From positions 82,082 to 146,081 of the forward strand of contig JARBJD010000187.1 in NCBI GenBank assembly GCA_033064195.1: a DNA stretch of 64,000 nucleotides, read 5' to 3'. The notes below the pieces were generated by a model, which made no database searches, was not told the origin of the DNA, and was given only the letters and a program-made list of their open reading frames with translations. The DNA comes from Blattamonas nauphoetae (lineage: Eukaryota > Preaxostyla > Oxymonadida). Of the stretch, positions 28,395 to 54,306 are shown piece after piece (within the stretch, counting starts at the first letter, position 1; every line of letters begins with the position of its first letter). A program made the position numbers and the translations under genes.

Positions 28395-28687
28395 GTGTGT
28401 TTTGATTGTTCTGTCTTCCTCACCCCCTCGAAACTTCGACTAATTCATTCTCATTTCTCGTATTTGTGTTATTTGTGGTCCGTTTTTGGTGTTCATTTCT
28501 TTCCAAACTTGATCGAACCTTCATAATTAAAAAACAAACCCTGTTCGAACAAAATTCACATTTTTCGCTTCTGACTGATCATAAACGAACGTAAAAACGC
28601 AATCTGAGGTGCTAAAACTGTGAAAAGCCTCATATCGCATCATCTTCAGATATTTTCAACAAAACCCTCTCATCGCCTAATTAAGCG

Positions 28688-28726
28688 CCAAAAACCAGTG
28701 TCCTATGATAGGACACGGGTTTTTGG
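28688..28726. repeat. 39-bp hairpin near the outer end of the left arm
   Basis: Two 19-nt arms around a single central base: ccaaaaaccagtgtcctat, g, then its complement with one mismatch (a against c). RNA or single-stranded DNA of this segment would fold almost completely. The same hairpin is perfect in the right arm. It sits 74 bp inside the palindrome edge. Confidence 0.85.
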
Positions 28727-29267
28727 AGGCGGACATGCCGACGCAAGGTAAGTTGTAACTGTTCTATCCGTCATGAACGACTCATCTGACACAAAATGAG
28801 CACTCCTCGGGATCACTGATTGTTATGATATATGTGACCTTGCCTCATCTTCACCGCCTTGGAAAGAGTAGATTCCCCCGATTCTTTGATTTTTTGACTT
28901 TTCAGTGAAGGGAACCGTGCAAATCATAAGATTATCCGATTCTTCAACAAAGTTTTCAAGACTCTCTCCCAACTCAATTCAACATCGAAATCTCACGGTT
29001 CACTGGAAACTGATTCAGTTTTTGTTTCAAATCAGGAGATGTTTCTTTTTCAATCACTTTACACAGATAGTTGATGACATTTCAGATCCCATTCATTGAA
29101 TCACCGAAACCAGCTCGTCGAAATTATGTCTCTCCAGAAGCTCTGTTCCAGACCGAAGAATCTGTTTCTACGACGTATATTTTTCCAATATTCTGTCCTT
29201 GGTTTCAGAATCATTCAAATCAGAGGGAAACGGTCTTTGGGCGTTAGGAGTCTCTTTCAAGAGTCGA

Positions 29268-29625
29268 TTATTGGTTATCAATCCACATCAGCTCATAGCG
29301 ATCAAGATTGAATCTCTTTGTGTCAGGTATTCTCATCATGTCTTCATTGCCTTCAGTCGATCTCACCATTGACCAAACAAGAATTCCCTTTCTGATCGCA
29401 GACGAAATTTGAATATATCTCAACACTACCCCGTCCAGAAGTTCGACGCCAACACATTTTTGTCCTTCCTTCGCAGAAATGCGATTCAGTGAGGAGTGAA
29501 CAGCCTCAGAAAGATTCGACATTGTCACTCGTCGATGAAGCAAAGCGCTAGCTTGCTGAGCAGTTTCCAAAGGATTCTGAAAAGAAGAAGCTAGGGGTTA
29601 CGTTGTCAGTTTGTGAAATGATCAT
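29268..29625 (-). CDS. Small unknown gene, left-arm copy (frame altered by one base)
   Basis: Minus-strand copy of the gene at 49,482-49,838. The conserved part (from about 29,577 down) reads NPLETAQQASALLHRR, later KCVGVELLDGVVLRYIQISSAI, and ends YELMWIDNQ. The left arm has gaaaagaag where the right has gaaagaag. If translation starts at the shared upstream ATG this is a frameshift; if the region is an intron ending ttttcag/tttcag it is neutral. No family was recognised. An antisense frame (29,603-30,052) overlaps the upstream side and contains CERCLDLNCFSRP, but is not supported as a gene. Confidence 0.35.
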
Positions 29626-30464
29626 CGATTACAGCTGCGAAAGGTGCCTCGATTTGAACTGCTTCTCTCGCCCATCCTCAGCCGCAGAAATGCTTCCTGA
29701 TCGTTTCTGGAAGATTATTGCAGCGACTAAACCCAAAATTCAGAAACAACCAACAAATTCCAACACTGAGAAACGGCAATCTCCACGCCACGTCGCAACT
29801 TCGCAGATCCCTCCAGACACACACGACGACAACGACGAGATGGACGAAAACGTGTTCCCCTCACCGTTGTCGGTGCAGAGGTACTCGCCACAATTGCATC
29901 CCGGATGGGAAAGCGGGTATCCTAAAAGATACCGTCAGTGTGAAGAAGAGATTTGGAAAAACCAGCAAGCCAGCCTCTTCCTGTTCAGCCCACGCCGCCA
30001 AACACTGCAAAGACTCCATCAAGCGCAGAGACACTCCACTTGCTCCTCGTAACTTCCAACATCGTTGCCATCCACAGCTCATTTCCATATTCGACTATCA
30101 TTGAGCAATCATGATCTTTATTGACATAAAAAAGAGAGTCTGATACCAAAACAAGAGTGAATAAGATGAAAAAGATGAAAAGGTAATCCACAATGGTGTG
30201 ACAAGAGTTGAGATGTTGATCAGACCCAAAGGGAACAGTGAAAACAGTGAGTGACTACTGACACGGCTTTTTGCCATGTCACCCATGAAAACTCATGTAA
30301 AAAACCGAGTTTGTGTTTCTCATGATCTCGTTTACAGAGTATTCACTTCCAGAGAATGAAAGAGTGAGATTGATCGGCCCTTTGTTTTCGAAACAGGTCA
30401 GATCAAACAAATACCCTTTTGCCTCTGTGTCTCTTCTTTCTTCCTTTTCGCTCACTGTGCCCGC

Positions 30465-33400
30465 ATGGGAAACACAATAAACGAACGCCTGCAGGAGAAC
30501 CGTCCCGAACCCTATGTGCTTAGTGACGATGAGCTCATCACTCTTTTAAGACGTCTCCAAATCATCGTTGATTCTTGTGTCGGAGTTTTGCACCGCAATG
30601 ACTTTCTGGATTTTGATCGTGACCTTGATAATGACAAACTTCGCAACCTTTCACGTTTCCTCTATCTCTCATTCCCCACCATTCGGGACAAACGAAATGA
30701 ACTCGCGGCTTTGAAACCTTACCTCTTCCGGTCCGCTATACTCTCCATCTTTGGGCATATAGTAGTGAATGCAATGACGTACATCAAGCGGGGCACTTTG
30801 AATACCGGTAAGGAAGCAAAAGAGTCTGACACCTCACGAAAACCATTCCTTCATGTGGTCACTGGTACGCCTGGAATCGGAAAATCGGCAAGTCGATATC
30901 CGTTCATCACGTTGCTGATGGGTTTCGGAGTCGAGGTGTGTTTTTATCAGAAGTTCAGTTCCATCTAGGCCATCACAACGAAGAGATCTGGTGAATGTGC
31001 ATTTCTGTTTGAACGAAAGAGCAAATCAAAGGCTGGCATCGCGACAATAACCACAAAGGGTCCATACAGGGAGGATATTGAACATTATATCCAAAGCTAC
31101 TTGAATTATTACAACGTGTATAAGTATCCATTGGATCAAGGAACAAAACCAAACGACTCATCCACAGGTGGAGACATCTACTTTCCGGCAGGACTTGAGA
31201 AGGACCAAGTTCTTATGGGACAACTCATCGTCCCGAGTGTGGAATACTTCCCTCGTTTCCTCCATCTCGTGTTCGGGGGGACAAACTATGACTTTAAAAA
31301 GCCAGAAGAAATACAAGAAGACATCACTATTACGGCACAGTCAGTTCTCAAGAAGGGCTCAGAGATTGCTAAAGACTCCGTCTTACACGTAGTCTCTCAG
31401 ACTCTGATGAAACCGATGAAATTACGCGATACTACAACTCTTGGAAAACATTCAATTCTCTGTTCAGGGTCAGAACTCCTTGAAGAGTCGAAAGAACCAA
31501 CAAAAGTCGAGTCAGGATCGATTTATCTTCACCACGATATGGTCTTGGAAGCCAACTCAGTCATTGCTACTGGTTCGGTTCTGGTGCATCAAGGAAAGAC
31601 GCCAATCAAACGCTCTTTCTCAGAAACTCAAATTCTCGAAGATGACATCACAATCGGTCCAGGTTCGATAATCAAAGCTACATCGAACATTCTTCCTGAT
31701 TCGTCTCTCGTTCATGGGTACTCCGTCCAGAACAAACTCGAAAACACAAAATGGCATATCATTGATGAGTTTGTGTTCTTTTTCGTCATCGTTCTCAGTC
31801 TCACAATCGCAAGCGAAACTGGCCTCCCAGAAACAAACCATTGTGTCCTCTTCACTTCGCCAAATGAAGAGAGGTGGCACAAAACGAACGAAGATGGGAG
31901 AAGCATGCATTATTTCATCGCTGAATATGTTGTCCCAAAGTATTCGCTTCAAGAGGAAGCAGCATTCCTCAACGCGATAGGTCAAGATGCAGTGCTTCAG
32001 GAAACCCATCTGGCAGAACTTGAAAAAGGGGCACAATTGTTTTCGTTCATCCCACGCTTCATCTTGGACCCGGACTGTTCTAAAAGCGCGTTCGAATTAG
32101 TTCACACAAAGGATCCAAAGAAACTAACTGAGCTTGAAAGAGAAAAAATCTTTGGGTCATATGTCTCGCACAAACTCGTTCACTTCTCGTGTCCGCAATA
32201 TGACTGCCACAATTGGTTCGTCCAATTTGCAACAGACAACGCTCGACAATTTGTCTTGGATATGTTCAATCTCCACAGTACGAGTACGTACCATACTTTC
32301 CTCACATCGATGACAGACAATGTTGAGTTGAACCAAAAAAAGGGAGCCATCTTCCACAACTTTGTGTTGGATGCCATCGACGGCGGGTTCTACATCGACT
32401 CTCCGACCCGACTCGTCTCCGAAATACCTCTCCGTTGTCCTTCCTTCCATCTCCCAACGATCCTTGGGGAATCAAACATCTATCTCCGAAGCTCGACAAA
32501 CATCCGTCGTGCGTATCTTCCGGATATCTCTCGCATCGATCCAGACAGTCTCTCCCCGTTTCTAAACAAATACAACATCCTCTTCGAAAATCCGATGGAC
32601 CCATGTTTGTCGTTCTTCACCAATCACCGCGATCTGTCTGATTTGATGGATGCTCAAACTTCTGAATCTGTACCGCCCGTAGCAGGAATGGCAACCCGTT
32701 CCAACAGACAGATGATCACACCAACTCCCAACTCACCTCTCAATTCCTCAGATTCCACATCATCAGCCTCTTCTCTCCGTTCCGAAGCAGAGTTCTCGAC
32801 CCCTCTCTCCTCTTCCGAAGCAGAGTTCTCGACCTCTCTCTCCTCTTCCGAACCAGGGTCTCCAGATTTTTTCTCCTCTTCCGAAGCAGAGTTCTCGACC
32901 TCTCTCTCCTCTTCCGAAGCAGAGCCTCCAGACACTTCACTCAATTCCGAAGCAGAGTCTCCCGACGCCAAATGTTTCACTTATTCTCTGAATCCATTGG
33001 GGGCTAACAACGCTGGTTTTGACTCTATTATTCTTTTCTTCAAGGTTCACATGGATAAAACGACAATGATCGTCGATGCACTGTCTGTTATCTTCATCCA
33101 ATCAACCCTCGCACCAACACATAAAATCAGTCCATCTGGATCGAATTTAATGTTCCTATGGCTTCATCTGTTCTCCGACATCTACAATCTCAGCCCAAGT
33201 GTCATCTTCCCATTTCTCTTCTTTGTGAAGAGCCCATTCGTCGAAAAATTCTCCAAGGATGGTGACAACACAACAGAATTCTTCATGGATGAAAAAAACA
33301 TTTGGGTTATGAATGGATACGCAAAAACTGTGGACGAAGTGACAGTGAAATGCACTGGACGCTTGATTCTGGATTCTAACATCTCGCTGATACCGAACAC

Positions 33401-36400
33401 AAATCCATATTACTACAGGTGCTGCTTTTGTGGTCTGCTCTTGAAAGAAAATTTCATGAATCATAACTGCGATAGACTCCGCACAGGAATCACGGCCCAA
33501 ACGTCAGCGCACTTCATCTCTTCACCATGGAAGACATATGCTTCAGAAATGGGGCAAGTCGGGGTTTATGATCGTCTCAACCCACACGAACACTGGGCGC
33601 TGTTGCCTGGAGCCCGATCGGTGACGAATGTTGCCTTTCATCTAGCGATGGAAAGAGAACAAGGCCCCTGTCTTGTCCACTGCAGTCTCGCAAACTGTGG
33701 TCGTCGGGAGATGACGTTGAACTATCCAACAGTTGGATTCATCCCAAACTCTCGGAGCGGCCGCACCAACATAGACCCATTCGATATTATTCTAATCAAA
33801 CCAACGAAGGATAGGAGCAATCTCTTCCCTCTTGCCAACGTCTCATCAGAACCCGAGCCATACACGAGCTTATTTCGTGTTGATCACTATGGGCCAATTC
33901 TCGATCTTTTTTCGTACTTCCCACGACCAAATGTCGCGACGACTGTGCGCCATATTGTGGATTACCCACTCGTCCAAACAGATATCCCAAGACATGACAG
34001 TGGAGCCCGTGGAAACCAAACAGCCAACGAAAGACATGACAGTGGAGCCCGTGGAAACCAAACAGCCAACGAAAGCGCTGGACGCAATGAAGATCCGGAA
34101 GCTGCTCCTGCTGAAGTCAATTATTCAGAATATCGTATGTATGCATTGTTGAGCATGATAAGACTGTGGGGAAAGAAGAAAGCGATTGGGTTCACAAAGA
34201 TAGGAGAAACATCATATGTCTGTGAAGTGGACGACTTACAGCCATCAAACAAAGATGTGGTCAAGCTGTGTGAGGACAAATCCATTCCTCTGCCTCAACT
34301 GTATGTTCCGATGGACTGTCTGAACAGATTGCCTGTCAGCCTGTATGGCACACGCACACTCGTTCCTTTTGAGATCAAATGCCTCCTCGCTGGAGATTCC
34401 TTAGGAGATACATCCGATACGGAATACTTCTCCATAAAGAAACATCTCGAATGTGGACTGCAAATGTCATTAAACACTCTGAAGAAACTTGCTGGTGATG
34501 ACATCAACAAGAAACACCTCCTCACGAAATGCCTGAATCGTTTGCATTCTCTTCTAAAGAACATGGCACAGATCAGCATGAGTGATTTCCAGATGCTGGT
34601 GTCGTATGTGAATGGGTTGCCTCTCATCATTGCAGACATCCTGCAGTTATGCATAGATTATCTCTCTTGTTACGATCAACTCACTCCTCGTCAGCTGGAT
34701 TTCTTGATATGTTATCTCAAGAACCCCATCACACGCAAGAAGGAGATTATCAACGATCTAGCATCGTCAAATCCAGAAAAGAGGTTGCCCACTTGGAGTG
34801 ATTTACAAGTCTTACAAAATCGAGCATCAAAATCACTTAAATATTTTTCCACAGACAGATCTTCATTCATTGGAAGTCTCGATGAGGAACCGACATTCGA
34901 CGACTCGACTCTGCAAGAGATTAATGGTCTTTCACAGATTATTTCCAAAAAAGAACGTGGTAAACACAACCAAAACGTCCTTCTCGCGGAACTGGAATCA
35001 AAGAACCGACAAATCCAAATCAATCTCGATTTCATGGAAATTCTACTCAAGAATGGCATGACCATTGTGAAAAAACAGCTTCAGCTTTTTGTTGATCATG
35101 TGATTAAAGAAAAGCCATCAACGGATTTTACCGACGAAGATAAAGCAGTCCTGCTCGATCGGTTTCGAACAAACCCATTGTTGTATCCATGGCATCACTG
35201 TAAGCTGATTCCTTTTTTCACAGATGCTTCGCATATTCAGACACAGAAACCGTTTCTAATCAAAACACTCTCCTCCAAAGATCGCGAACTCCAACCACAT
35301 GAAACAGATTTACTGGTGGCATTTTTGACGATCCAAACTCCACTCAAAGATGAAGAAACCAAACGTCTGATATCTTTAGTGAATGACAGCAAGCTCAAAA
35401 ATCAGGATAGGCTCAAAAATCGGGACAGGCTCAAAAATGAGGGCAAGCTCGAAAATGAGGACAAGCCGTTGCTGATCAATCTGATTACTGGAGAACTAAA
35501 ATCAGGAGCAACAACGTACCACCGTCTGTCAAATACCAGTATCAAGAACTACGACAAAAAATGGAATGACGCAATGAGCAATCTTGAATCGAATGAGCTT
35601 CAGAAATTGGACAGAAACTTTCTGTGTGAATGTCTGAATAAGCAGAAACCATTGAACGATTACAAAATGAAAGAACTGTCATTAATCGTCGATCGCACCA
35701 CTTTATCAGCCTGTTCTGAAAGGAATACACTCAAGTCAATGATCACTGGGAAGCCACTATTCTCGTGTTCAGATCGACAAACGTTTGTCTGTTACTATCT
35801 CCGCCTTCGGGAATCGGGTCTGGACAAACCTGGCCGAGAAAGCGAACGCGAACAGGTGAACAAGGAACTTGCACGATCTGATCAAACAATTGCCATCAAA
35901 TGTGTCTTTTATCCTCTCCTCTCTGCAGAACGAGACCTGAGGTTGCTGTTCAGTCTTCTCAGAGGAACAGGACGTGCTAATGAACGACGACGAGAAGAAC
36001 TCATCACAAAGATGAGCCGAACTCGAGAATCAATCCTTCTGACAATGAAAGACCGGTTTAAACGTCTTGGAAGGGATCATTTGTTTTCCTGGAATGATCT
36101 CGCTTCTCTTCTATGTTGTCCGAATGGCAGCGAATCGAAATATCTGATCGGCATTCAATCATTGGTGGCTGCAAAAATAGTCCCAAAAGGCAAAGCTGTG
36201 ACAATAACCGATTTGCCAAGCCGTGCTCAGCCCACCATAACCAAGGACACCACCCGTGGTGTGTCAGAAACCATAACTCGTGACGCCAAGAGAGTCTTAC
36301 GTGTGACTAAAACTAATCTCGAAGGTATGTCAACGCCTTTGCCTCTTAAAAGGGTACAAAGCACCCCGACAAAACAAATCACTGATAAACGCCAAAGGCA

Positions 36401-36422
36401 TCATTCCGGGAGGGGACATTAA
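30465..36422 (+). CDS. RHS/Crinkler-like P-loop NTPase, left-arm copy, 1,964 residues
   Basis: Exons 30,465-30,935, 30,969-31,768 and 31,799-36,422. The introns are 33 nt (30,936-30,968, its terminal tag is an in-frame stop if unspliced) and 30 nt (31,769-31,798, stop-free and frame-neutral). Both sit at the same positions as in the 14.6-kb paralogue. Walker A VVTGTPGIGKS is at residues about 128-138, and Walker B-like WHIIDD is formed across intron 2. Further on come a serine-rich repeat block (SEAEFSTSLSS units, 32.77-32.97 kb), a CxxC..HxxxC zinc-like motif (33.42 kb), a 14-residue tandem repeat (33.99 kb, two units), a charged KNxDRL repeat (35.4 kb) and a basic C-terminus. The last third is helical and unrecognised. 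The role is unknown; the family resemblance is to RHS/Crinkler ATPases. Confidence 0.85.
33990..34073 (+). repeat. 42-bp coding minisatellite, two units (left arm)
   Basis: Two direct copies of a 42-bp unit encoding RHDSGARGNQTANE within the NTPase gene. The unit length is a multiple of three, so copy-number change keeps the frame. The orthologous site of the right arm has eight units. Confidence 0.93.
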
Positions 36423-36494
36423 ACATCCAAACGAACATTTTCTTTTTTTCTCATTCACTTCACTGAGAGGTCATCGTTCGTTGTCAGATATTCG

Positions 36495-38817
36495 ATGGAT
36501 GAAGTCATAGATGAAAGCAAGGGATTGTGTGGGACTGTTCTCCCCTTCCTCCAATTGTCATCAAAAAGATATGGGAGTTCACTGATTTTGTCTATGTCAC
36601 AAGAACAAGACCTGCCAATGACCATGCCTCCAATGGGAGATGGTCGCTTTCTGGAGCGTATGGATGATGCTCAAAATGTTTCGGAACAAGAACAACCCCT
36701 CGACAGTCCACCAATTGTTCTCCGCCTTCACAGGAGGAATGCTTGTGACCTGTCACAGTTCAAGGATCAACCTACCTCACAATTTCTGAGTATTGATACT
36801 CTTTTTTATTGACCACTTTCAGTTTCCCAGATGATGAGTTTAGATGAAATTCTTGTCGCTCTCGGAGAAGAGCAACGAGCAGACATTCCTGATCTCCTCC
36901 TTGTTCTTAACAAGATGACAGGTGTTCTATGATTATGTTCCTCACCAATTTTTCCTGAGCAGGTACTGATGAAAATTGCAGAAGACTCGTCCAACACAAT
37001 ACGATCCCGCTCCTCTCACAACTTCTGATGAGTTCACAAGATGAAAGAGTAGTAGTATGATTTATTTTTTCAATGTATTGGGATCAGTCTCTTCTTCTCT
37101 GGATACTCTCTGATATTGGTATGATTTATGCTCCTTCTCAATGTTTTACTCAAATTTTCGGAATTTTTAGTTGCATTGCCAACAGATGAAGTTCACCACT
37201 TTTTTGATGACAAGATCCTCCGGGTCATTTTTGGATTCGCTCGGAGCAGTTCGCTAGACGTGATGGAAACGGTTTACCTCAACCCGTTCTCTATTCTGAT
37301 TCAGGCTTGGTGGTTCCTTGACAATTTTACTGTCATTGACCATGATCAGCATGAATTTGTCAATCATCTTGTGCAACTGGGAATATTTGAAGTATTCACT
37401 CCAGCAATGATCCAACTTCACAATAGAACAATCCAACGACCTGCATGGCATCTTCGATCTCTAAACCTCATCGCAAATACCTCAGAATTGCAATTTCCAA
37501 TCATGACAATGGTCATACCAGATCATCCAAATAGCTGTCACCACCTCCTCAGAACGATCAGACGTATCGCCACCATCACTCAAACTCCCATCACGGCCGA
37601 CGTAGCGACATTTATCTTTATGGTGTTTGTGTCAGGCTGTTCTTTGGACATTGACAGTGCTGTGGATGTTCTTCTCTCAGAACATGGTCTCCTTCAAGAC
37701 CTTTCCTCAGTGATCTACCAAACACCAATGCCACCATTCTTCCCTCCGTACATCCAATCATTTCCACAGCTAACAATTTTGCTTTTATCGTATGCTTACG
37801 AGGGTCTTTCAAGCGGATATCAGACATATACAGTTTTGAACCAAGCCCAGACACAATACCACATTTCTGAGAGTCAAAATAAAGCTCTGGCCATACGGTC
37901 TTCTTCAGAAGTGCCTGATGAAGAGAATCTCAAGAATCAGATTGTTACTGAGCTCAACAACTATTTCTATATCGCAAGGAATGTTTTGATTCTGATTGGC
38001 ACAGCCATACCCGGAAGTGCTGAAGTAGCTGATTTATATCTCAATGTTGGTCTTGTTCCCGCCCTTGGAGAATGTATTCGCGTAGTTCAGACAATTCAAC
38101 ATGATGAACTGTCCCACGACTGTTCTCTCCTCACCATGACAACGGCAGAAGTTGCCGAAGGAAATCCTGGCGATTTATGGAGGAGAACACTGGAAGTCAT
38201 TTCTTCACTTGATTGCATGACACCTGCAACTGAGGAACAACAGCAAATGTCAACCTCATTTCTTCGTCCCAAATGTCACGAACAAATGAGACTTTCGAAT
38301 ATATATCCAAAGCATTTGAAAGAAGTTCATCACAATATCGCCCTCTGTCTGTCGAATATCTCAGGAATCACTGAATTACATTCACTGAGAGTCCTGAACG
38401 AAACATTCCCCGGACCAGATTCATCTCAGAAGTTTCTCCGATTTGTCTCTGATCGGCTTGTTGACGACACATCGACATCATTTTATGCGGATTTGTCAAT
38501 CGTTCATGGATTATTCTACAGTCGGAGTGCCCCAATCTTCGCCGAAATTGAGAAGAGCCCAATTCTCGCAGCAATCTTCACTTTCAAATGGTATCGGCAC
38601 ACTCATCCGATTGCAGACACTTCTGTCTGCATTTTTTTTCGAGATTCTTATTGCCTTAATCTTGAATGCATCTGATCCTTGCATCATATTCGATTATGTC
38701 CAGAATGATGTGATTGAACACAAAATTCTCAAATCAACCAAAAAATTCTCTGAAACAACAATGGAGACTATGAAAATCTACTATCAACATCTTGCTATTC
38801 TCAAACAATCCATCTGA
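36495..38817 (+). CDS. Armadillo/HEAT-like helical protein, left-arm copy, 3' frameshift
   Basis: Exons 36,495-36,789, 36,823-36,921, 36,963-37,054, 37,088-37,118 and 37,171 onward, with introns of 33, 41, 33 and 52 nt. All have GT..AG ends and matching phases. The spliced reading gives ILVALGEEQRAD, ENCRRLVQHNTIPLLSQLL, SLLLWILSDIVALP and then a long helical-repeat region typical of armadillo/HEAT scaffolds. A run of eight T at 38,632-38,639 (seven in the right arm) shifts the frame, giving a stop at 38,675 instead of 38,817. The full reading would be about 720 residues. It lies 72 bp downstream of the NTPase stop, same strand, so the two may function together (inference). Confidence 0.7.
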
Positions 38818-38940
38818 CAAACCAAAGCTGGGGCGATTGGTCGTCACGTCACGGGATAGTATCGATATTGTTTCTGTCAACATTTCACTTTCCATAGTAT
38901 CGTCCACTACTTTTTTTCAATGGAATCATTCATTGTGAAG

Positions 38941-39914
38941 CAGGGTGGACGGGCCCTTAGATGTGACTTAAGTCTCGAGAAAATGACTTAGATCGAAGTA
39001 ACGACTGGAAATGACTTCCTTACATGTCACTGGCCAAAAATGACTTACTTATATGTCACAGATTGAGAATTTTTGACCTGTTTCGATGAAATGAGATTAT
39101 CACGAAGAAAATGTTCACTTTCCTTTTCTCATATCTGTTCCTGCTTCCAATTTCAGATTTTCTTGACATTATCTGGTTTTGTTATTAAAACCACTCTATC
39201 CCGACGTCAAGATGGTTGATCGAGAGACCACCTTCGATGTTTGCTCTTTTTGAGTGTTGAATGGACTTTCCATTGCATAGAATACTTCACCCTTCTGATT
39301 CGATGAGATAATATTTCCAGATGGATCAGCAACAACGGGGTCACAGTCTCATTCCCAATCCAGGTCAGACTCGAAGCCAGCTCCGCCGACTCGCTTTTCA
39401 GCAACTCGCAATGCTGTCTGTGTCCTCTTTCTTCTTCAATTCATGTTGATGTCTTCCTTTTTTCTTCTTTTCAAAGAACAGGAGTGCATCTGTCCACAAG
39501 CCTTTGAGCTCGGCCTTCGCTATTTCTCTTCCCCTGATCTTGCTTCCAACCAGATTGCTCCACTTCACCGCTGGATATCTTTCATCCTTTTAAACAGTAT
39601 CGTCTTCTGTTGGTTTTGTGATGGATATATCTCGTCTGCCTCAATCATGCTGATCGACAGTCACTGGATTCTTTTTGGTCCTTATGTGAAATAAACAGGG
39701 ATTAACATCCCCAAGGAACACCATACTGTGTGGAAAGTGAACATTTTCTTCGTGATAATCTCATTTCATCGAAACAGGTCAAAAATTCTCAATCTGTGAC
39801 ATATAAGTAAGTCATTTTTGGCCAGTGACATGTAAGGAAGTCATTTCCAGTCGTTACTTCGATCTAAGTCATTTTCTCGAGACTTAAGTCACATCTAAGG
39901 GCCCGTCCACCCTG
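38941..39914. mobile_element. CAGGG/CCCTG inverted-repeat element at the palindrome centre
   Basis: The innermost 183 bp of both arms start CAGGGTGGACGGGCCC (38,941) and end with its complement (39,914), enclosing the 608-bp unpaired centre. The terminal tract is full of short repeats (atgactta / atgtcac), like subterminal transposase-binding sites. The termini resemble hAT ends and those of the two other CAGGG elements in this window. Because the flanks are themselves palindromic, no target duplication can be read. The 608-bp centre has only short ORFs (for example 39,443-39,694) and no transposase. Confidence 0.5.
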
Positions 39915-40037
39915 CTTCACAATGAATGATTCCATTGAAAAAAAGTAGTGGACGATACTATGGAAAGTGAAATGTTGACAGAAACAATATCGATACTATC
40001 CCGTGACGTGACGACCAATCGCCCCAGCTTTGGTTTG

Positions 40038-42360
40038 TCAGATGGATTGTTTGAGAATAGCAAGATGTTGATAGTAGATTTTCATAGTCTCCATTGTTGT
40101 TTCAGAGAATTTTTTGGTTGATTTGAGAATTTTGTGTTCAATCACATCATTCTGGACATAATCGAATATGATGCAAGGATCAGATGCATTCAAGATTAAG
40201 GCAATAAGAATCTCGAAAAAAATGCAGACAGAAGTGTCTGCAATCGGATGAGTGTGCCGATACCATTTGAAAGTGAAGATTGCTGCGAGAATTGGGCTCT
40301 TCTCAATTTCGGCGAAGATTGGGGCACTCCGACTGTAGAATAATCCATGAACGATTGACAAATCCGCATAAAATGATGTCGATGTGTCGTCAACAAGCCG
40401 ATCAGAGACAAATCGGAGAAACTTCTGAGATGAATCTGGTCCGGGGAATGTTTCGTTCAGGACTCTCAGTGAATGTAATTCAGTGATTCCTGAGATATTC
40501 GACAGACAGAGGGCGATATTGTGATGAACTTCTTTCAAATGCTTTGGATATATATTCGAAAGTCTCATTTGTTCGTGACATTTGGGACGAAGAAATGAGG
40601 TTGACATTTGCTGTTGTTCCTCAGTTGCAGGTGTCATGCAATCAAGTGAAGAAATGACTTCCAGTGTTCTCCTCCATAAATCGCCAGGATTTCCTTCGGC
40701 AACTTCTGCCGTTGTCATGGTGAGGAGAGAACAGTCGTGGGACAGTTCATCATGTTGAATTGTCTGAACTACGCGAATACATTCTCCAAGGGCGGGAACA
40801 AGACCAACATTGAGATATAAATCAGCTACTTCAGCACTTCCGGGTATGGCTGTGCCAATCAGAATCAAAACATTCCTTGCGATATAGAAATAGTTGTTGA
40901 GCTCAGTAACAATCTGATTCTTGAGATTCTCTTCATCAGGCACTTCTGAAGAAGACCGTATGGCCAGAGCTTTATTTTGACTCTCAGAAATGTGGTATTG
41001 TGTCTGGGCTTGGTTCAAAACTGTATATGTCTGATATCCGCTTGAAAGACCCTCGTAAGCATACGATAAAAGCAAAATTGTTAGCTGTGGAAATGATTGG
41101 ATGTACGGAGGGAAGAATGGTGGCATTGGTGTTTGGTAGATCACTGAGGAAAGGTCTTGAAGGAGACCATGTTCTGAGAGAAGAACATCCACAGCACTGT
41201 CAATGTCCAAAGAACAGCCTGACACAAACACCATAAAGATAAATGTCGCTACGTCGGCCGTGATGGGAGTTTGAGTGATGGTGGCGATACGTCTGATCGT
41301 TCTGAGGAGGTGGTGACAGCTATTTGGATGATCTGGTATGACCATTGTCATGATTGGAAATTGCAATTCTGAGGTATTTGCGATGAGGTTTAGAGATCGA
41401 AGATGCCATGCAGGTCGTTGGATTGTTCTATTGTGAAGTTGGATCATTGCTGGAGTGAATACTTCAAATATTCCCAGTTGCACAAGATGATTGACAAATT
41501 CATGCTGATCATGGTCAATGACAGTAAAATTGTCAAGGAACCACCAAGCCTGAATCAGAATAGAGAACGGGTTGAGGTAAACCGTTTCCATCACGTCTAG
41601 CGAACTGCTCCGAGCGAATCCAAAAATGACCCGGAGGATCTTGTCATCAAAAAAAGTGGTGAACTTCATCTGTTGGCAATGCAACTAAAAATTCCGAAAA
41701 TTTGAGTAAAACATTGAGAAGGAGCATAAATCATACCAATATCAGAGAGTATCCAGAGAAGAAGAGACTGATCCCAATACATTGAAAAAATAAATCATAC
41801 TACTACTCTTTCATCTTGTGAACTCATCAGAAGTTGTGAGAGGAGCGGGATCGTATTGTGTTGGACGAGTCTTCTGCAATTTTCATCAGTACCTGCTCAG
41901 GAAAAATTGGTGAGGAACATAATCATAGAACACCTGTCATCTTGTTAAGAACAAGGAGGAGATCAGGAATGTCTGCTCGTTGCTCTTCTCCGAGAGCGAC
42001 AAGAATTTCATCTAAACTCATCATCTGGGAAACTGAAAGTGGTCAATAAAAAAGAGTATCAATACTCAGAAATTGTGAGGTAGGTTGATCCTTGAACTGT
42101 GACAGGTCACAAGCATTCCTCCTGTGAAGGCGGAGAACAATTGGTGGACTGTCGAGGGGTTGTTCTTGTTCCGAAACATTTTGAGCATCATCCATACGCT
42201 CCAGAAAGCGACCATCTCCCATTGGAGGCATGGTCATTGGCAGGTCTTGTTCTTGTGACATAGACAAAATCAGTGAACTCCCATATCTTTTTGATGACAA
42301 TTGGAGGAAGGGGAGAACAGTCCCACACAATCCCTTGCTTTCATCTATGACTTCATCCAT
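40038..42360 (-). CDS. Armadillo/HEAT-like helical protein, right-arm copy, internal frameshift
   Basis: Mirror copy with introns at 42,033-42,065, 41,893-41,933, 41,768-41,800 and 41,685-41,736. Here the 3' end is intact to 40,038. However, the run after VHH is seven A on the plus strand (41,649-41,655) where the left arm has six T, which puts a stop directly after the start of exon 5. Each arm therefore has one broken and one good site. Either both genes are damaged, or these are homopolymer miscounts in the assembly. Confidence 0.65.
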
Positions 42361-42432
42361 CGAATATCTGACAACGAACGATGACCTCTCAGTGAAGTGA
42401 ATGAGAAAAAAAGAAAATGTTCGTTTGGATGT

Positions 42433-45400
42433 TTAATGTCCCCTCCCGGAATGATGCCTTTGGCGTTTATCAGTGATTTGTTTTGTCGGGGTGCTTTGTA
42501 CCCTTTTAAGAGGCAAAGGCGTTGACATACCTTCGAGATTAGTTTTAGTCACACGTAAGACTCTCTTGGCGTCACGAGTTATGGTTTCTGACACACCACG
42601 GGTGGTGTCCTTGGTTATGGTGGGCTGAGCACGGCTTGGCAAATCGGTTATTGTCACAGCTTTGCCTTTTGGGACTATTTTTGCAGCCACCAATGATTGA
42701 ATGCCGATCAGATATTTCGATTCGCTGCCATTCGGACAACATAGAAGAGAAGCGAGATCATTCCAGGAAAACAAATGATCCCTTCCAAGACGTTTAAACC
42801 GGTCTTTCATTGTCAGAAGGATTGATTCTCGAGTTCGGCTCATCTTTGTGATGAGTTCTTCTCGTCGTCGTTCATTAGCACGTCCTGTTCCTCTGAGAAG
42901 ACTGAACAGCAACCTCAGGTCTCGTTCTGCAGAGAGGAGAGGATAAAAGACACATTTGATGGCAATTGTTTGATCAGATCGTGCAAGTTCCTTGTTCACC
43001 TGTTCGCGTTCGCTTTCTCGGCCAGGTTTGTCCAGACCCGATTCCCGAAGGCGGAGATAGTAACAGACAAACGTTTGTCGATCTGAACACGAGAATAGTG
43101 GCTTCCCAGTGATCATTGACTTGAGTGTATTCCTTTCAGAACAGGCTGATAAAGTGGTGCGATCGACGATTAATGACAGTTCTTTCATTTTGTAATCGTT
43201 CAATGGTTTCTGCTTATTCAGACATTCACACAGAAAGTTTCTGTCCAATTTCTGAAGCTCATTCGATTCAAGATTGCTCATTGCGTCATTCCATTTTTTG
43301 TCGTAGTTCTTGATACTGGTATTTGACAGACGGTGGTACGTTGTTGCTCCTGATTTTAGTTCTCCAGTAATCAGATTGATCAGCAACGGCTTGTCCTCAT
43401 TTTCGAGCTTGCCCTCATTTTTGAGCCTGTCCCGATTTTTGAGCCTATCCTGATTTTTGAGCTTGCTGTCATTCACTAAAGATATCAGACGTTTGGTTTC
43501 TTCATCTTTGAGTGGAGTTTGGATCGTCAAAAATGCCACCAGTAAATCTGTTTCATGTGGTTGGAGTTCGCGATCTTTGGAGGAGAGTGTTTTGATTAGA
43601 AACGGTTTCTGTGTCTGAATATGCGAAGCATCTGTGAAAAAAGGAATCAGCTTACAGTGATGCCATGGATACAACAATGGGTTTGTTCGAAACCGATCGA
43701 GCAGGACTGCTTTATCTTCGTCGGTAAAATCCGTTGATGGCTTTTCTTTAATCATATGATCAACAAAAAGCTGAAGCTGTTTTTTCACAATGGTCATGCC
43801 ATTCTTGAGTAGAATTTCCATGAAATCGAGATTGATTTGGATTTGTCGGTTCTTTGATTCCAGTTCCGCGAGAAGGACGTTTTGGTTGTGTTTACCACGT
43901 TCTTTTTTGGAAATAATCTGTGAAAGACCATTAATCTCTTGCAGAGTCGAGTCGTCGAATGTCGGTTCCTCATCGAGACTTCCAATGAATGAAGATCTGT
44001 CTGTGGAAAAATATTTAAGTGATTTTGATGCTCGATTTTGTAAGACTTGTAAATCACTCCAAGTGGGCAACCTCTTTTCTGGATTTGACGATGCTAGATC
44101 GTTGATAATCTCCTTCTTGCGTGTGATGGGGTTCTTGAGATAACATATCAAGAAATCCAGCTGACGAGGAGTGAGTTGATCGTAACAAGAGAGATAATCT
44201 ATGCATAACTGCAGGATGTCTGCAATGATGAGAGGCAACCCATTCACATACGACACCAGCATCTGGAAATCACTCATGCTGATCTGTGCCATGTTCTTTA
44301 GAAGAGAATGCAAACGATTCAGGCATTTCGTGAGGAGGTGTTTCTTGTTGATGTCATCACCAGCAAGTTTCTTCAGAGTGTTTAATGACATTTGCAGTCC
44401 ACATTCGAGATGTTTCTTTATGGAGAAGTATTCCGTATCGGATGTATCTCCTAAGGAATCTCCAGCGAGGAGGCATTTGATCTCAAAAGGAACGAGTGTG
44501 CGTGTGCCATACAGGCTGACAGGCAATCTGTTCAGACAGTCCATCGGAACATACAGTTGAGGCAGAGGAATGGATTTGTCCTCACACAGCTTGACCACAT
44601 CTTTGTTTGATGGCTGTAAGTCGTCCACTTCACAGACATATGATGTTTCTCCTATCTTTGTGAACCCAATCGCTTTCTTCTCTCCCCACAGTCTTATCAT
44701 GCTCAACAATGCATACATACGATATTCTGAATAATTGACTTCAGCAGGAGCAGCTTCCGGATCTTCATTGTGTCCAGCGCTTTCGTTGGCTGTTTGGTTT
44801 CCACGGGTTCCACTGTCATGTCTTGGGATAGCTGTTTGGTTTCCACGGGTTCCACTGTCATGTCTTGGGATAGCTGTTTGGTTTCCACGGGTTCCACTGT
44901 CATGTCTTGGGATAGCTGTTTGGTTTCCACGGGTTCCATTGTCATGTCTTGGGATAGCTGTTTGGTTTCCACGGGTTCCATTGTCATGTCTTGGGATAGC
45001 TGTTTGGTTTCCACGGGTTCCATTGTCATGTCTTGGGATAGCTGTTTGGTTTCCACGGGCTCCACTGTCATGTCTTTCGTTGGCTGTTTGGTTTCCACGG
45101 GCTCCACTGTCATGTCTTGGGATATCTGTTTGGACGAGTGGGTAACCCACAATTTGGCGCACAGTCGTCGCGACATTTGGTCGTGGGAAGTACGAAAAAA
45201 GATCGAGAATTGGCCCATAGTGATCAACACGAAATAAGCTCGTGTATGGCTCGGGTTCTGATGAGACGTTGGCAAGAGGGAAGAGATTGCTCCTATCCTT
45301 CGTTGGTTTGATTAGAATAATATCGAATGGGTCTATGTTGGTGCGGCCGCTCCGAGAGTTTGGGATGAATCCAACTGTTGGATAGTTCAACGTCATCTCC

Positions 45401-48400
45401 CGACGACCACAGTTTGCGAGACTGCAGTGGACAAGACAGGGGCCTTGTTCTCTTTCCATCGCTAGATGAAAGGCAACATTCGTCACCGATCGGGCTCCAG
45501 GCAACAGCGCCCAGTGTTCGTGTGGGTTGAGACGATCATAAACCCCGACTTGCCCCATTTCTGAAGCATATGTCTTCCATGGTGAAGAGATGAATTGTGC
45601 TGACGTTTGGGCCGTGATTCCTGTGCGGAGTCTATCGCAGTTATGATTCATGAAATTTTCTTTCAAGAGCAGACCACAAAAGCAGCACCTGTAGTAATAT
45701 GGATTTGTGTTCGGTATCAGCGAGATGTTAGAATCCAGAATCAAGCGTCCAGTGCATTTCACTGTCACTTCGTCCACAGTTTTTGCGTATCCATTCATAA
45801 CCCAAATGTTTTTTTCATCCATGAAGAATTCTGTTGTGTTGTCACCATCCTTGGAGAATTTTTCGACGAATGGGCTCTTCACAAAGAAGAGAAATGGGAA
45901 GATGACACTTGGGCTGAGATTGTAGATGTCGGAGAACAGATGAAGCCATAGGAACATTAAATTCGATCCAGATGGACTGATTTTATGTGTTGGTGCGAGG
46001 GTTGATTGGATGAAGATAACAGACAGTGCATCGACGATCATTGTCGTTTTATCCATGTGAACCTTGAAGAAAAGAATAATAGAGTCAAAACCAGCGTTGT
46101 TAGCCCCCAATGGATTCAGAGAATAAGTGAAACATTTGGCGTCGGGAGACTCTGCTTCGGAATTGAGTGAAGTGTCTGGAGGCTCTGCTTCGGAAGAGGA
46201 GAGAGAGGTCGAGAACTCTGCTTCGGAAGAGGAGAAAAAATCTGGAGACCCTGGTTCGGAAGAGGAGAGAGAGGTCGAGAACTCTGCTTCGGAAGAGGAG
46301 AGAGGGGTCGAGAACTCTGCTTCGGAACGGAGAGAAGAGGCTGATGATGTGGAATCTGAGGAATTGAGAGGTGAGTTGGGAGTTGGTGTGATCATCTGTC
46401 TGTTGGAACGGGTTGCCATTCCTGCTACGGGCGGTACAGATTCAGAAGTTTGAGCATCCATCAAATCAGACAGATCGCGGTGATTGGTGAAGAACGACAA
46501 ACATGGGTCCATCGGATTTTCGAAGAGGATGTTGTATTTGTTTAGAAACGGGGAGAGACTGTCTGGATCGATGCGAGAGATATCCGGAAGATACGCACGA
46601 CGGATGTTTGTCGAGCTTCGGAGATAGATGTTTGATTCCCCAAGGATCGTTGGGAGATGGAAGGAAGGACAACGGAGAGGTATTTCGGAGACGAGTCGGG
46701 TCGGAGAGTCGATGTAGAACCCGCCGTCGATGGCATCCAACACAAAGTTGTGGAAGATGGCTCCCTTTTTTTGGTTCAACTCAACATTGTCTGTCATCGA
46801 TGTGAGGAAAGTATGGTACGTACTCGTACTGTGGAGATTGAACATATCCAAGACAAATTGTCGAGCGTTGTCTGTTGCAAATTGGACGAACCAATTGTGG
46901 CAGTCATATTGCGGACACGAGAAGTGAACGAGTTTGTGCGAGACATATGACCCAAAGATTTTTTCTCTTTCAAGCTCAGTTAGTTTCTTTGGATCCTTTG
47001 TGTGAACTAATTCGAACGCGCTTTTAGAACAGTCCGGGTCCAAGATGAAGCGTGGGATGAACGAAAACAATTGTGCCCCTTTTTCAAGTTCTGCCAGATG
47101 GGTTTCCTGAAGCACTGCATCTTGACCTATCGCGTTGAGGAATGCTGCTTCCTCTTGAAGCGAATACTTTGGGACAACATATTCAGCGATGAAATAATGC
47201 ATGCTTCTCCCATCTTCGTTCGTTTTGTGCCACCTCTCTTCATTTGGCGAAGTGAAGAGGACACAATGGTTTGTTTCTGGGAGGCCAGTTTCGCTTGCGA
47301 TTGTGAGACTGAGAACGATGACGAAAAAGAACACAAACTCATCAATGATATGCCATTTTGTGTTTTCGAGTTTGTTCTGGACGGAGTACCCATGAACGAG
47401 AGACGAATCAGGAAGAATGTTCGATGTAGCTTTGATTATCGAACCTGGACCGATTGTGATGTCATCTTCGAGAATTTGAGTTTCTGAGAAAGAGCGTTTG
47501 ATTGGCGTCTTTCCTTGATGCACCAGAACCGAACCAGTAGCAATGACTGAGTTGGCTTCCAAGACCATATCGTGGTGAAGATAAATCGATCCTGACTCGA
47601 CTTTTGTTGGTTCTTTCGACTCTTCAAGGAGTTCTGACCCTGAACAGAGAATTGAATGTTTTCCAAGAGTTGTAGTATCGCGTAATTTCATCGGTTTCAT
47701 CAGAGTCTGAGAGACTACGTGTAAGACGGAGTCTTTAGCAATCTCTGAGCCCTTCTTGAGAACTGACTGTGCCGTAATAGTGATGTCTTCTTGTATTTCT
47801 TCTGGCTTTTTAAAGTCATAGTTTGTCCCCCCGAACACGAGATGGAGGAAACGAGGGAAGTATTCCACACTCGGGACGATGAGTTGTCCCATAAGAACTT
47901 GGTCCTTCTCAAGTCCTGCCGGAAAGTAGATGTCTCCACCTGTGGATGAGTCGTTTGGTTTTGTTCCTTGATCCAATGGATACTTATACACGTTGTAATA
48001 ATTCAAGTAGCTTTGGATATAATGTTCAATATCCTCCCTGTATGGACCCTTTGTGGTTATTGTCGCGATGCCAGCCTTTGATTTGCTCTTTCGTTCAAAC
48101 AGAAATGCACATTCACCAGATCTCTTCGTTGTGATGGCCTAGATGGAACTGAACTTCTGATAAAAACACACCTCGACTCCGAAACCCATCAGCAACGTGA
48201 TGAACGGATATCGACTTGCCGATTTTCCGATTCCAGGCGTACCAGTGACCACATGAAGGAATGGTTTTCGTGAGGTGTCAGTCTCGTCTGCTTCCTTACC
48301 GGTATTCAAAGTGCCCCGCTTGATGTACGTCATTGCATTCACTACTATATGCCCAAAGATGGAGAGTATAGCGGACCGGAAGAGGTAAGGTTTCAAAGCC

Positions 48401-48642
48401 GCGAGTTCATTTCGTTTGTCCCGAATGGTGGGGAATGAGAGATAGAGGAAACGTGAAAGGTTGCGAAGTTTGTCATTATCAAGGTCACGATCAAAATCCA
48501 GAAAGTCATTGCGGTGCAAAACTCCGACACAAGAATCAACGATGATTTGGAGACGTCTTAAAAGAGTGATGAGCTCATCGTCACTAAGCACATAGGGTTC
48601 GGGACGGTTCTCCTGCAGGCGTTCGTTTATTGTGTTTCCCAT
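42433..48642 (-). CDS. RHS/Crinkler-like P-loop NTPase, right-arm copy, about 2,048 residues
   Basis: Mirror copy of the 30,465 gene, with introns at 48,139-48,171 and 47,309-47,338. It differs by six extra 14-residue repeat units. Visible replacements include AKES to ADET before Walker A, TSAH to TSAQ, HIVD to QIVG, GRNED to GHNED, GKKK to GEKK, and DHVI to DHMI. Here an additional in-frame ATG lies upstream (48,738), absent from the left copy where the base is different, so the start could be 32 codons earlier. I prefer the shared MGNTINE start. Both copies are fully open, which suggests both can be expressed and that frame is under selection. Confidence 0.85.
44782..45117 (-). repeat. 42-bp coding minisatellite, eight units (right arm)
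   Basis: Eight units of 42 bp (336 bp), the first encoding RHDSGARGNQTANE, the later ones variants IPRHDNGTRGNQTA and IPRHDSGTRGNQTA. The variants are arranged in blocks (three N, then three S), as expected from recent local duplication of units. It expands a hydrophilic, probably disordered linker. Confidence 0.93.
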
Positions 48643-49481
48643 GCGGGCACAGTGAGCGAAAAGGAAGAAAGAAGAGACGCAGAGGCAAAAGGGTATTTGT
48701 TTGATCTGACCTGTTTCGAAAACAAAGGGCCGATCCATCTCACTCTTTCAGACTCTGGAAGTGAATACTCTGTAGACGAGATCATGAGAAACACAAACTC
48801 GGTTTTTTACATGAGTTTTCATGGGTGACACGGCAAAAATCCGTACAAATTGTTTGTCATTTCTGTATCTCTGCACTTTGGGTCTGATCAACATCTCAAC
48901 TCTTGTCACACCATTGTGGATTACCTTTTCATCTTTTTCATCTTATTCACTCTTGTTTTGGTATCAGACTCTCTTTTTTATGTCAATAAAGATCATGATT
49001 GCTCAATGATAGTCGAATATGGAAATGAGCTGTGGATGGCAACGATGTTGGAAGTTACGAGGAGCAAGTGGAGTGTCTCTGCGCTTGATGGAGTCTTTGC
49101 AGTGTTTGGCGGCGTGGGCTGAACAGGAAGAGGCTGGCTTGCTGGTTTTTCCAAATCTCTTCTTCACACTGACGGTATCTTTTAGGATACCCGCTTTCCC
49201 ATCCGGGATGCAATTGTGGCGAGTACCTCTGCACCGACAACGGTGAGGGGAACACGTTTTCGTCCATCTCGTCGTTGTCGTCGTGTGTGTCTGGAGGGAT
49301 CTGCGAAGTTGTGACGTGGCGTGGAGATTGCCGTTTCTCAGTGTTGGAATTTGTTGGTTGTTTCTGAATTTTGGGTTTAGTCGCTGCAATAATCTTCCAG
49401 AAACGATCAGGAAGCATTTCTGCGGCTGAGGATGGGCGAGAGAAGCAGTTCAAATCGAGGCACCTTTCGCAGCTGTAATCG

Positions 49482-49838
49482 ATGATCATTTCACAAACTG
49501 ACAACGTAACCCCTAGCTTCTTCTTTCAGAATCCTTTGGAAACTGCTCAGCAAGCTAGCGCTTTGCTTCATCGACGAGTGACAATGTCGAATCTTTCTGA
49601 GGCTGTTCACTCCTCACTGAATCGCATTTCTGCGAAGGAAGGACAAAAATGTGTTGGCGTCGAACTTCTGGACGGGGTAGTGTTGAGATATATTCAAATT
49701 TCGTCTGCGATCAGAAAGGGAATTCTTGTTTGGTCAATGGTGAGATCGACTGAAGGCAATGAAGACATGATGAGAATACCTGACACAAAGAGATTCAATC
49801 TTGATCGCTATGAGCTGATGTGGATTGATAACCAATAA
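49482..49838 (+). CDS. Small unknown gene, right-arm copy, 118 residues
   Basis: ATG frame MIISQTDNVTPSFFFQNPLE...YELMWIDNQ. An alternative is an exon starting at 49,530 after ttctttcag, preceded by exons I could not place between 48,900 and 49,500. The composition is that of a folded alpha/beta protein, with no membrane segment or coiled coil. It faces toward the NTPase promoter region from the outer edge of the arm. Function is unknown. Confidence 0.4.
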   Translation: MIISQTDNVTPSFFFQNPLETAQQASALLHRRVTMSNLSEAVHSSLNRISAKEGQKCVGVELLDGVVLRYIQISSAIRKGILVWSMVRSTEGNEDMMRIPDTKRFNLDRYELMWIDNQ

Positions 49839-50379
49839 TCGACTCTTGAAAGAGACTCCTAACGCCCAAAGACCGTTTCCCTCTGATTTGAATGATTCTG
49901 AAACCAAGGACAGAATATTGGAAAAATATACGTCGTAGAAACAGATTCTTCGGTCTGGAACAGAGCTTCTGGAGAGACATAATTTCGACGAGCTGGTTTC
50001 GGTGATTCAATGAATGGGATCTGAAATGTCATCAACTATCTGTGTAAAGTGATTGAAAAAGAAACATCTCCTGATTTGAAACAAAAACTGAATCAGTTTC
50101 CAGTGAACCGTGAGATTTTGATGTTGAATTGAGTTGGGAGAGAGTCTTGAAAATTTTGTTGAAGAATCGGATAATCTTGTGATTTGCACAGTTTTCTTCA
50201 CAGAAAAGTCAAAAAATCAAAGAATCGGGGGAGTCTACTCTTTCCAAGGCGGAGAAGATGAGGCAAAGTCACATATATCATAACAATCAGTGATCCCGAG
50301 GAGTGCTCATTTTGTGTCAGATGAGTCGTTCATGACGGATAGAACAGTTACAACTTACCTTGCGTCGGCATGTCCGCCT

Positions 50380-50418
50380 CCAAAAACCCGTGTCCTATCA
50401 TAGGACACGGGTTTTTGG
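50380..50418. repeat. 39-bp perfect hairpin near the outer end of the right arm
   Basis: Arms ccaaaaacccgtgtcctat and its exact complement flank a single c. It is the partner of 28,688-28,726, with the one mismatch removed. Its place just inside the palindrome boundary in both arms makes it a candidate for a rearrangement or replication-stalling site. Confidence 0.88.
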
Positions 50419-51847
50419 CGCTTGATTAGGCGATGAGAGGGTTTGGTTGAAAATATCTGAAGATGATGCGATATGAGGCTTTTCACAGTTTTCGTACCTG
50501 GGTGCAAATTTTTGAAGTCGTAAAAAAGGATCATTTTTTCAGAGTGAGATCTCCTGATCTCAAATCATGCCATCACCAAGAGATTGCACGATTCATTCAA
50601 TTTAAGAGTATTTCAAAGTTGATTCATGTCTGTATGGAAAATATGTGATCGATCTACCCACATTTATTAAAAAAGTGTCATGAAAAGGTAATACAGTCCT
50701 TTCCAAAAAGTTGATCCACTGGACCTTGTGCAAAACGAGCCCATAGTTTCATAACATGTCGTTCCGTTTCGAAATAGGAGTCACGATTTCATCAACGATG
50801 CACTTGTTTCAGAAACGAATGTTTTGTTTCGCAAGAAAGCGAACTTTTTGAAAAGAAAAAAATATGGGTTCCAGATCAACCGGATCTGGACACAGAGTTG
50901 AGAGTGGTGCTGAACAGAGGTCTCACTGATTCTTGAACATGATAATAACCTCGTGACAGAATTATCAGCTCTTTTCAGATTCAGTTGTTCCGTTTGGATT
51001 CACATTTATCCACATCCTTTGTTCGAGATGATAAATCCATCAAAAAATCATCCTTTCGCTCTTTCTTAAGTTTCTCTTCCTTATCTCGTTGGTGAATGGT
51101 GAAATATCGTGGCGAGTATGAGGGTTCCGCTTGGTATGAATCTTGGTGTGATTTCTGGCAATAAGGCCTTGTGATCTGCCAACTTCGACATCTTTCCTTG
51201 AAGAACAATACCTCAGTTCTTGGTAATGTGAAGAGTTGAATCATTATCAGCGAAATCTGGAAAGATTCCCTACTCTGTTCAGATCGGAGCTGGATCTGAC
51301 AACATTGCATAGAAAACTGTGTGATAGCTTCAAAATGGATACTAGCGAGTATATAATTTTGAAGAAATGTGATCATACAGCCAAAACTCGTCGAGAATAC
51401 GACATAATGAGAGTTGGATTTTGACCAGTGATTTGTGAATGCTTCAGGAAGATTTGAACATGTTTTCGACTGCAAATTATCATGGAATCCAAGAAAGGAA
51501 GGTGAAGAGATTAGAAATGAGCGCAAAAACATGGCCAAATTGCTTGTTCACTTCGAGATTGGGGATCGAGGTGGCGAACCGCAGTAGATGAAAATGGTGG
51601 ATATACATGTTGTACGGCAGCAAGAAATCTAAATTGAAAGCGGTTGCTACATTTTTCGCTGACAATATCGACTTGATCCATCGTGAATGTCGACTTCTTT
51701 TGGATCACATTTCATTGATTGCGTTTGGATGGTTCCAAAGCGGAAAAATGACAAGTATAGTTGATGGAATTGCAGTAACAGCCTCCGACGAGTGGATAAT
51801 TGGACGAAAACATAGACTGAAAAAATATTGTTTCGAAACGATGGGAC

Positions 51848-52336: not shown

Positions 52337-52455
52337 GATGGGACTGTTTCAAAATCGACTGGACTGTTTCGAAACGATTGTACTGTTTCGAAACGATTCG
52401 GTCATTTCGCTAAACACACCCCGGTTGCTTTAACGTGTTGACTTTTGATACTATA

Positions 52456-54281: not shown

Positions 54282-54306
54282 TACAGTCCTTTCCAAAAAG
54301 TTGATC
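54259..54306. repeat. 48-bp perfect palindrome made of two abutting TIRs
   Basis: gatcaactttttggaaagga and onward is followed, around a central gtac, by its exact complement (24 + 24). It consists of a right TIR ending at 54,281, a shared TA, and a left TIR starting at 54,284. This is two Tc1-like ends back to back. Confidence 0.9.

Follow-up and report, generated by a model that had tools for sequence, protein, structure and literature searches.

Large palindromes that carry genes have been considered chiefly in sex chromosomes and in asexual animals. Here we ask whether a palindrome found in the genome of the oxymonad Blattamonas nauphoetae is real, how it could have been formed and whether it stands alone. 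The stretch analyzed, referred to as the window, comprises 64,000 nt (C98:82082-146081; contigs are denoted by C and a number) at the end of a 146-kb contig in an assembly of 88.3 Mb and 837 contigs. Each arm of the palindrome carries a cassette of two genes, one encoding a predicted P-loop nucleoside triphosphatase (NTPase) and one encoding a predicted armadillo-like protein. Judging from the sequence, the palindrome is probably real and young, an inverted duplication that arose by fold-back.

Structure of the palindrome

Self-comparison of the window resolved the palindrome into five inverted-repeat blocks in collinear order (491-4495 bp, 98-100% identity), far beyond what chance would give. 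This is the near-identical 21.9-kb palindrome described in the original prediction, and the coordinates of its arms and spacer are listed in Table 1. When aligned to each other, the arms differ by 50 substitutions, three 1-bp indels located in short homopolymers and a single length difference of 252 bp, in agreement with the small number of substitutions claimed. The length difference equals six 42-bp minisatellite units and is in frame within the NTPase reading frame. The two versus eight units counted originally are confirmed as 2.4 and approximately 8. A diverged island, predicted at about 50 bp, is likewise present and contains 19 of the substitutions within 45 bp. The outer flanks had been described as unique, and they do resemble each other in short repeats only, the longest match being ∼330 bp at 73%.

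Junctions and flanks of the palindrome

Paralogous sequences show what the center looks like when it is not rearranged. A paralog on C287 is collinear with the spacer and the right arm over 39120-39917 (87%), and one on C317 over 39135-39905 (80%), i.e., the single-copy spacer is continuous with one of the arms in both. The two paralogs have ∼287 bp more in common in the leftward direction, which are absent from the window. As this dispersed element continues leftward on C287 and C317 and does not in the window, the left edge of the spacer is a break inside the element. The edges of the spacer carry a 4-bp inverted microhomology, TTCC against GGAA, and the chance of an inverted match of at least 4 bp at random joins is ∼0.02.

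At the left outer boundary a dispersed repeat is unbroken, and the right arm contains only the inner part of this repeat. The right outer boundary coincides with one end of a 196-bp repeat that is followed by further repeats, and the outer end of the copied arm is hence joined to unrelated DNA. The left arm looks original on its outer side and the right arm on its inner side.

In the available text of PMC3907307, the spacers of human fold-back inverted duplications range from 766 to 70,466 bp, and inverted microhomology of 2-8 bp was seen at 13 of 21 sequenced junctions. These constitutional duplications resemble the palindrome in having a single-copy spacer, a short inverted microhomology at its edge and a far end that may be joined to other DNA. 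They are, however, megabase-sized, whereas the arms described here are ∼10 kb long, belong to a protist and recur on one cassette.

From these observations we infer the following fold-back route and priming strand. A broken or stalled end within the dispersed element beside the gene pair would have folded back on itself, the short inverted match TTCC/GGAA would have primed synthesis across the 608-nt loop, and the arm would have been copied as a mirror image. The far end would afterwards have been joined to unrelated, repeat-rich DNA.

Two other features were observed near the outer boundaries. A 39-bp hairpin lies in a short repeat resembling miniature inverted-repeat transposable elements (window 28688-28726 and 50380-50418), and this repeat recurs on no fewer than 19 further contigs. 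At window 50717-52400 there is a transposon-like repeat with 92-93% copies on C101 and C35, split by an insert of 489 bp, of which there are further copies elsewhere.

Two further palindromes with the same cassette

The genome search for other copies of the pair, suggested with the original prediction, was carried out and revealed palindromes on C12 and C10 in addition to the linked gene pairs described below. The second palindrome (C12:55852-63836 / 64245-72224) has ∼8.0-kb arms of 99.4% identity and a 408-bp spacer, and its junction shows a 7-bp inverted match together with a 3-4-nt change. Its center is repeated on contig C741, with the same 3-nt left/right junction signature and a different spacer core. 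The third palindrome (C10:84848-93573 / 93736-102213) has arms of ∼8.6 kb with 97.6-99.5% identity and a 162-bp spacer. Both contain one cassette per arm, the two cassettes lying head to head, and in both the outer flanks gave no mutual match over the 2.4-4.8 kb compared, short repeats apart. Just past the right arm on C10 there are copies of the center (C10:102992-103501, 510 bp, 99%; C10:104648-104799, 152 bp, 100%), which is what template switching would leave. The C12 and C10 palindromes were probably made by the same kind of event as the one in the window, which looks independent of both because it has another gene orientation and another center.

Two other gene families served as a control. 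No inverted pairs within 25 kb were seen among 37 kinesin loci (37 of 69 matches used, the others being further exons of the same loci). The 116 kinase loci among the matches listed (about 117 of 150 used; 117 of 2432 candidates scored) contained seven inverted pairs within 25 kb. Sequence comparison of three of these, which had similar scores, showed no near-identity; the remaining four were excluded because of their scores.

The palindromes could alternatively be assembly artefacts, in which fold-back reads (template, then complement) were kept by Canu and joined arm copies from different places. The genome was assembled from Nanopore R9.4 reads (LSK108, sheared to ∼20 kb) using Canu 1.7.1 with corMinCoverage 0, Nanopolish and Pilon, as stated in the available part of PMC10703272. 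This library type and the lenient Canu settings would fit such an origin, as would the palindrome sizes of 16-22 kb, close to the shearing size, and the single-base indels in the arms show that polishing is incomplete there. However, a single folded locus would mirror its outer flanks, and the flanks compared differ at all three palindromes. Neither the island of 19 substitutions nor the in-frame difference of six units is read noise, and the C12 and C741 contigs share an identical junction signature. As the assembly methods in the text available from PMC10703272 make no mention of whole-genome amplification (no match to “multiple displacement”), chimeras arising from such amplification were held unlikely. 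We therefore regard an artefact of assembly as quite improbable. The original view that the palindrome is real rather than chimeric is sustained by the unlike outer flanks, the paralog-confirmed junction with its 4-bp microhomology and the two further palindromes, all of these being judged from the assembly.

Some points weigh against recurrent fold-back duplication. Given R9.4 Nanopore reads, ∼20-kb shearing and corMinCoverage 0, palindromes near the read length deserve suspicion. The shortest spacer in PMC3907307 is longer than any of the three found here (162-608 bp). The left arm is continuous with its outer flank but the right arm with the spacer, and a single simple fold-back therefore needs a further event. 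The spacer may have been inverted later, as is to be expected where it is flanked by inverted arms, or the right side may have broken a second time; either would account for the observed continuity. The C10 palindrome is without a clean short microhomology, and its arms diverge over the last 70-90 bp. Since C10 and C12 both break within the same upstream region, they may not be mutually independent. Finally, the control is coarse and limited to two gene families. Taken together, we find recurrent fold-back duplication of a gene pair that duplicates often to be most likely, rather than a one-off event or an assembly error.

No report of these palindromes was found among the papers listed in literature searches, and the string “palindrom” is absent from the main text of the genome paper. 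As a structure the palindrome is of a known kind, and what is unusual is its recurrence on one undescribed gene pair. Palindromic gene blocks numbering 11 in Folsomia candida and 17 in Adineta vaga are given in the available text of PMC5490193. These also are inverted duplications of protein-coding genes outside Y chromosomes; in B. nauphoetae, the arms are 97.6-99.8% alike and three palindromes contain the same two-gene cassette. If our reading is true, three near-identical palindromes on one cassette in an amitochondriate protist would be a naturally occurring series of fold-back duplications, whose junctions can be seen unrearranged in paralogs. It also becomes testable whether the genome is generally palindrome-prone, for example because meiotic pairing is absent, or whether dosage selection acts on the cassette.

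Distribution of the arm differences

The original prediction compared the palindrome to those of sex chromosomes, where conversion acts between arms. If the palindrome were old and gene conversion had kept its arms similar, as happens in palindromes of Y chromosomes or of bdelloids, the differences could be clustered, and the innermost 4,023 bp of the arms are indeed without any substitution. The orientation of the spacer relative to the outer flanks also suggests that the arms may have recombined. Of the 50 differing sites, 17 have paralogs that agree with the left arm and 13 have paralogs that agree with the right arm; at the remaining sites the paralogs are mixed, unlike both states or without coverage. 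However, the clustering is modest once neighboring differences within 100 bp are merged into 9 events (P = 0.013 for a gap of this size at the inner end, 0.13 for one anywhere). Over ∼2.6 kb of the C12 and C741 palindromes, arms within a contig (3 and 7 substitutions) show no greater similarity than matching arms across the contigs (4 and 0); these arms are too alike to test homogenization within a lineage. Conversion is thus compatible with the data, but youth alone explains the identity of the arms equally well, and we consider an old, converted palindrome unlikely.

Table 1. Positions of the palindrome, its junctions and its genes in the window.
Feature	Position	Strand	Remarks
Left palindrome arm	28607..39123	+	10,517 bp; from self-comparison and arm alignment
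Right palindrome arm	39732..50499	-	10,768 bp; six 42-bp units longer than left arm
Unpaired spacer (fold-back loop)	39124..39731	.	608 bp
Inner junction	39120..39123	+	TTCC; 4-bp inverted microhomology with GGAA at 39732-39735; cut point of dispersed element
Remnant of dispersed element across spacer and right arm	39120..39917	+	Collinear paralogs on C287 and C317
Dispersed repeat unbroken across left outer boundary	28348..28751	+	83-86% copies on C288, C10, C46, C195, C619, C829 and C722
196-bp repeat, one end at right outer boundary	50498..50693	-	96-98% copies on C103, C257, C173 and C652; partial 88% copy on C67
Diverged island	30232..30276	+	45 bp; 19 of 50 arm substitutions; against 48831-48875
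P-loop NTPase gene, left copy	30465..36422	+	Open frames 30465-30968 and 31101-36422; deposited model BLNAU_17108 (1964 aa)
P-loop NTPase gene, right copy	42433..48642	-	Open frames 48738-48139 and 48006-42433; protein homology from 48642
42-bp minisatellite in NTPase coding sequence, left arm	33974..34075	+	2.4 units
42-bp minisatellite, right arm	44780..45133	-	∼8 units
Joint of NTPase 3′ flank and armadillo unit	36548..36597	+	C289 homology ends at 36547; C185 homology begins at 36597
Armadillo-like gene, left copy	36624..38814	+	Homology to P0005 over whole length; longest open frame 37128-38675
Armadillo-like gene, right copy	40041..42231	-	

The gene pair in the rest of the genome

To describe the cassette across the genome we used 31 of 49 armadillo matches (without fragments belonging to loci already counted, one fragment on C321 and a 22% match on C301) and 108 of 183 NTPase matches (the rest being for the most part overlapping or partial matches to loci already counted). 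The resulting locus counts are lower bounds, and the divergent NTPase of the window mentioned below is missing from these matches. At 18 of the 25 armadillo loci with at least 44% identity, a same-strand NTPase gene is present 0.5-3 kb downstream; these 25 are not all independent, because C741 and C12 represent a single palindrome in two versions. The two copies in the window have the NTPase upstream, the C299 locus has one only at 13 kb with fragments nearer, one C741 copy runs past the contig end, and no NTPase gene was found near the C185, C204 and C321 loci. None of the six armadillo loci of 30-32% identity is linked to an NTPase. Identity to the NTPase P0022 (longest piece) is 48-59% for the NTPases that adjoin close armadillo copies and 35-41% for those that adjoin the 44-45% copies, as if the two genes had diverged together; the C319 and C441 NTPases were matched only by the second NTPase query.

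The pair had been proposed to be duplicated or selected as a unit, and linkage in one order at 18 of 25 loci speaks for this. The order described for the window, NTPase followed by armadillo gene, is the reverse of the usual order in this genome. A joint near 36548-36597, where homology to C289 gives way to homology to C185, would explain the unusual order in the window. The cassette duplicates locally in direct as well as inverted orientation. Members of the gene family are also arranged in direct arrays, with armadillo genes 10.7 kb apart on C22 and NTPases ∼8 kb apart on C289.

Such spreading could mean that the cassette is a self-promoting element, which is copied and re-inserted in inverted orientation through the action of its own products or of a fixed end. 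It would then be a new gene-amplifying unit without transposon ends, for which palindromes are the normal mode of spread. The dispersal over many contigs, mostly as a pair of fixed order, and the three palindromes with one cassette per arm would agree with this, as would a faint likeness of two of the NTPases to trypanosome RHS proteins, a family tied to retrotransposon hot spots. However, no common termini were seen among the copies compared (target-site duplications were not searched). Of 14 copies, 12 show nucleotide homology from the start codon of the armadillo gene (window 36621-36624) onwards, whereas the homology begins at 36597 in C185 and within the gene in C607, and Pfam detected no transposase, integrase or nuclease domain. 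We hold active promotion of its own inverted duplication by the cassette to be very improbable.

The NTPase and armadillo-like genes

The NTPase belongs to what is, from its sequence, a so far undescribed family, of which at least 56 loci were located in the genome, 20 of them adjoining an armadillo-like gene. The P-loop assignment in the original prediction is borne out by the motif GTPGIGKS in the deposited model, although the window model matches no Pfam family. The motif G[TAS][PA]G[IML]GK[ST] occurs in 21 of 22 NTPase models. Nine of the 22 begin with MG, which would suit N-myristoylation. Searches against Pfam, NCBIfam and PDB sequences gave no significant family except for tail domains of single models. 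These tails (an EMB8 hydrolase and an Sm domain, on P0025 and P0031) were disregarded because they resemble fusions of gene models, and three matches to thioredoxin-like proteins in one search (E 0.02-0.06) were taken as chance. The AlphaFold2 model of P0022 had a predicted local distance difference test (pLDDT) score of 37.7, too low for a fold search, and was not used. A third, divergent NTPase relative (20-39% identity in pieces) lies at window 14692-16953 on the + strand, with an open frame at 15550-19272, ∼9-12 kb to the left of the palindrome.

The closest known system is the trypanosome RHS and Crinkler-RHS proteins as described in the available text of PMC5289972, likewise a large protist family of P-loop NTPases. 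TIGR01631, the RHS profile, appeared below threshold in 2 of 20 NTPase models (P0027, E 0.024, 12.8 bits; P0016, E 0.19, 9.8 bits). In contrast to RHS proteins, no NTPase scanned reached the TIGR01631 cut-off of 89.75 bits or matched RHSP (PF07999) by Pfam, no nuclease domain was found, and the partner is armadillo-like. A genome search with PF07999 gave no matches, but its control also matched nowhere. Named relatives of both genes were from Blattamonas only (13, 15 and 21 matches, the last two among the matches listed). A viral origin of the pair was also considered and rejected, as 127 pattern matches among viral contigs yielded none that was confirmed and no relative.

The partner is predicted to be a mostly helical, armadillo-like protein, a reading taken from the paralogs P0004 and P0005. 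The Pfam Arm profile scores 19.9 bits in P0005 and 16.5 bits in P0004, below its cut-off of 20.6 bits. With phmmer, P0004 matches an armadillo fusion protein (E 4.4e-10). The model of P0005 is mostly helical (pLDDT 71) and Foldseek matches it to a designed armadillo protein (E 9.4e-6). These matches are in line with armadillo solenoids such as importin alpha, Vac8 and designed armadillo repeat proteins (ArmRPs); the Foldseek matches to armadillo proteins have identities of 9-16% and query TM-scores of ∼0.24-0.43. The armadillo assignment of the original prediction is thus drawn from the paralogs, whereas the frame in the window itself, P0002, has no match in Pfam or among PDB sequences. We infer that the products of the pair act together, most simply as an armadillo-solenoid scaffold with a nucleotide-driven switch.

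By homology, the armadillo gene starts 201 bp past the NTPase stop. The spacing of 72 bp originally given refers to the first ATG of the open frame, at 36495. Of the pair said to be duplicated intact, the NTPase open frames conform to this, but each arm has its own homopolymer indel in the armadillo gene (37199/41655 and 38632/40223), a pattern suggestive of errors in polishing.

Other repeats in the window

Several repeats lie outside the palindrome. An inverted repeat of ∼410 bp with 97.6% identity is located at 52450-52856 / 53878-54287, with a perfect 48-bp palindrome at 54259-54306, and a smaller one, with 294-bp copies that are 100% identical and separated by 315 bp, at 25305-25598 / 25914-26207. 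At 61935-64000 a 30-bp minisatellite of ∼69 units reaches the contig end and is spanned by long open frames. The GC skew is extreme, 0.77, across the last 2 kb of the window.

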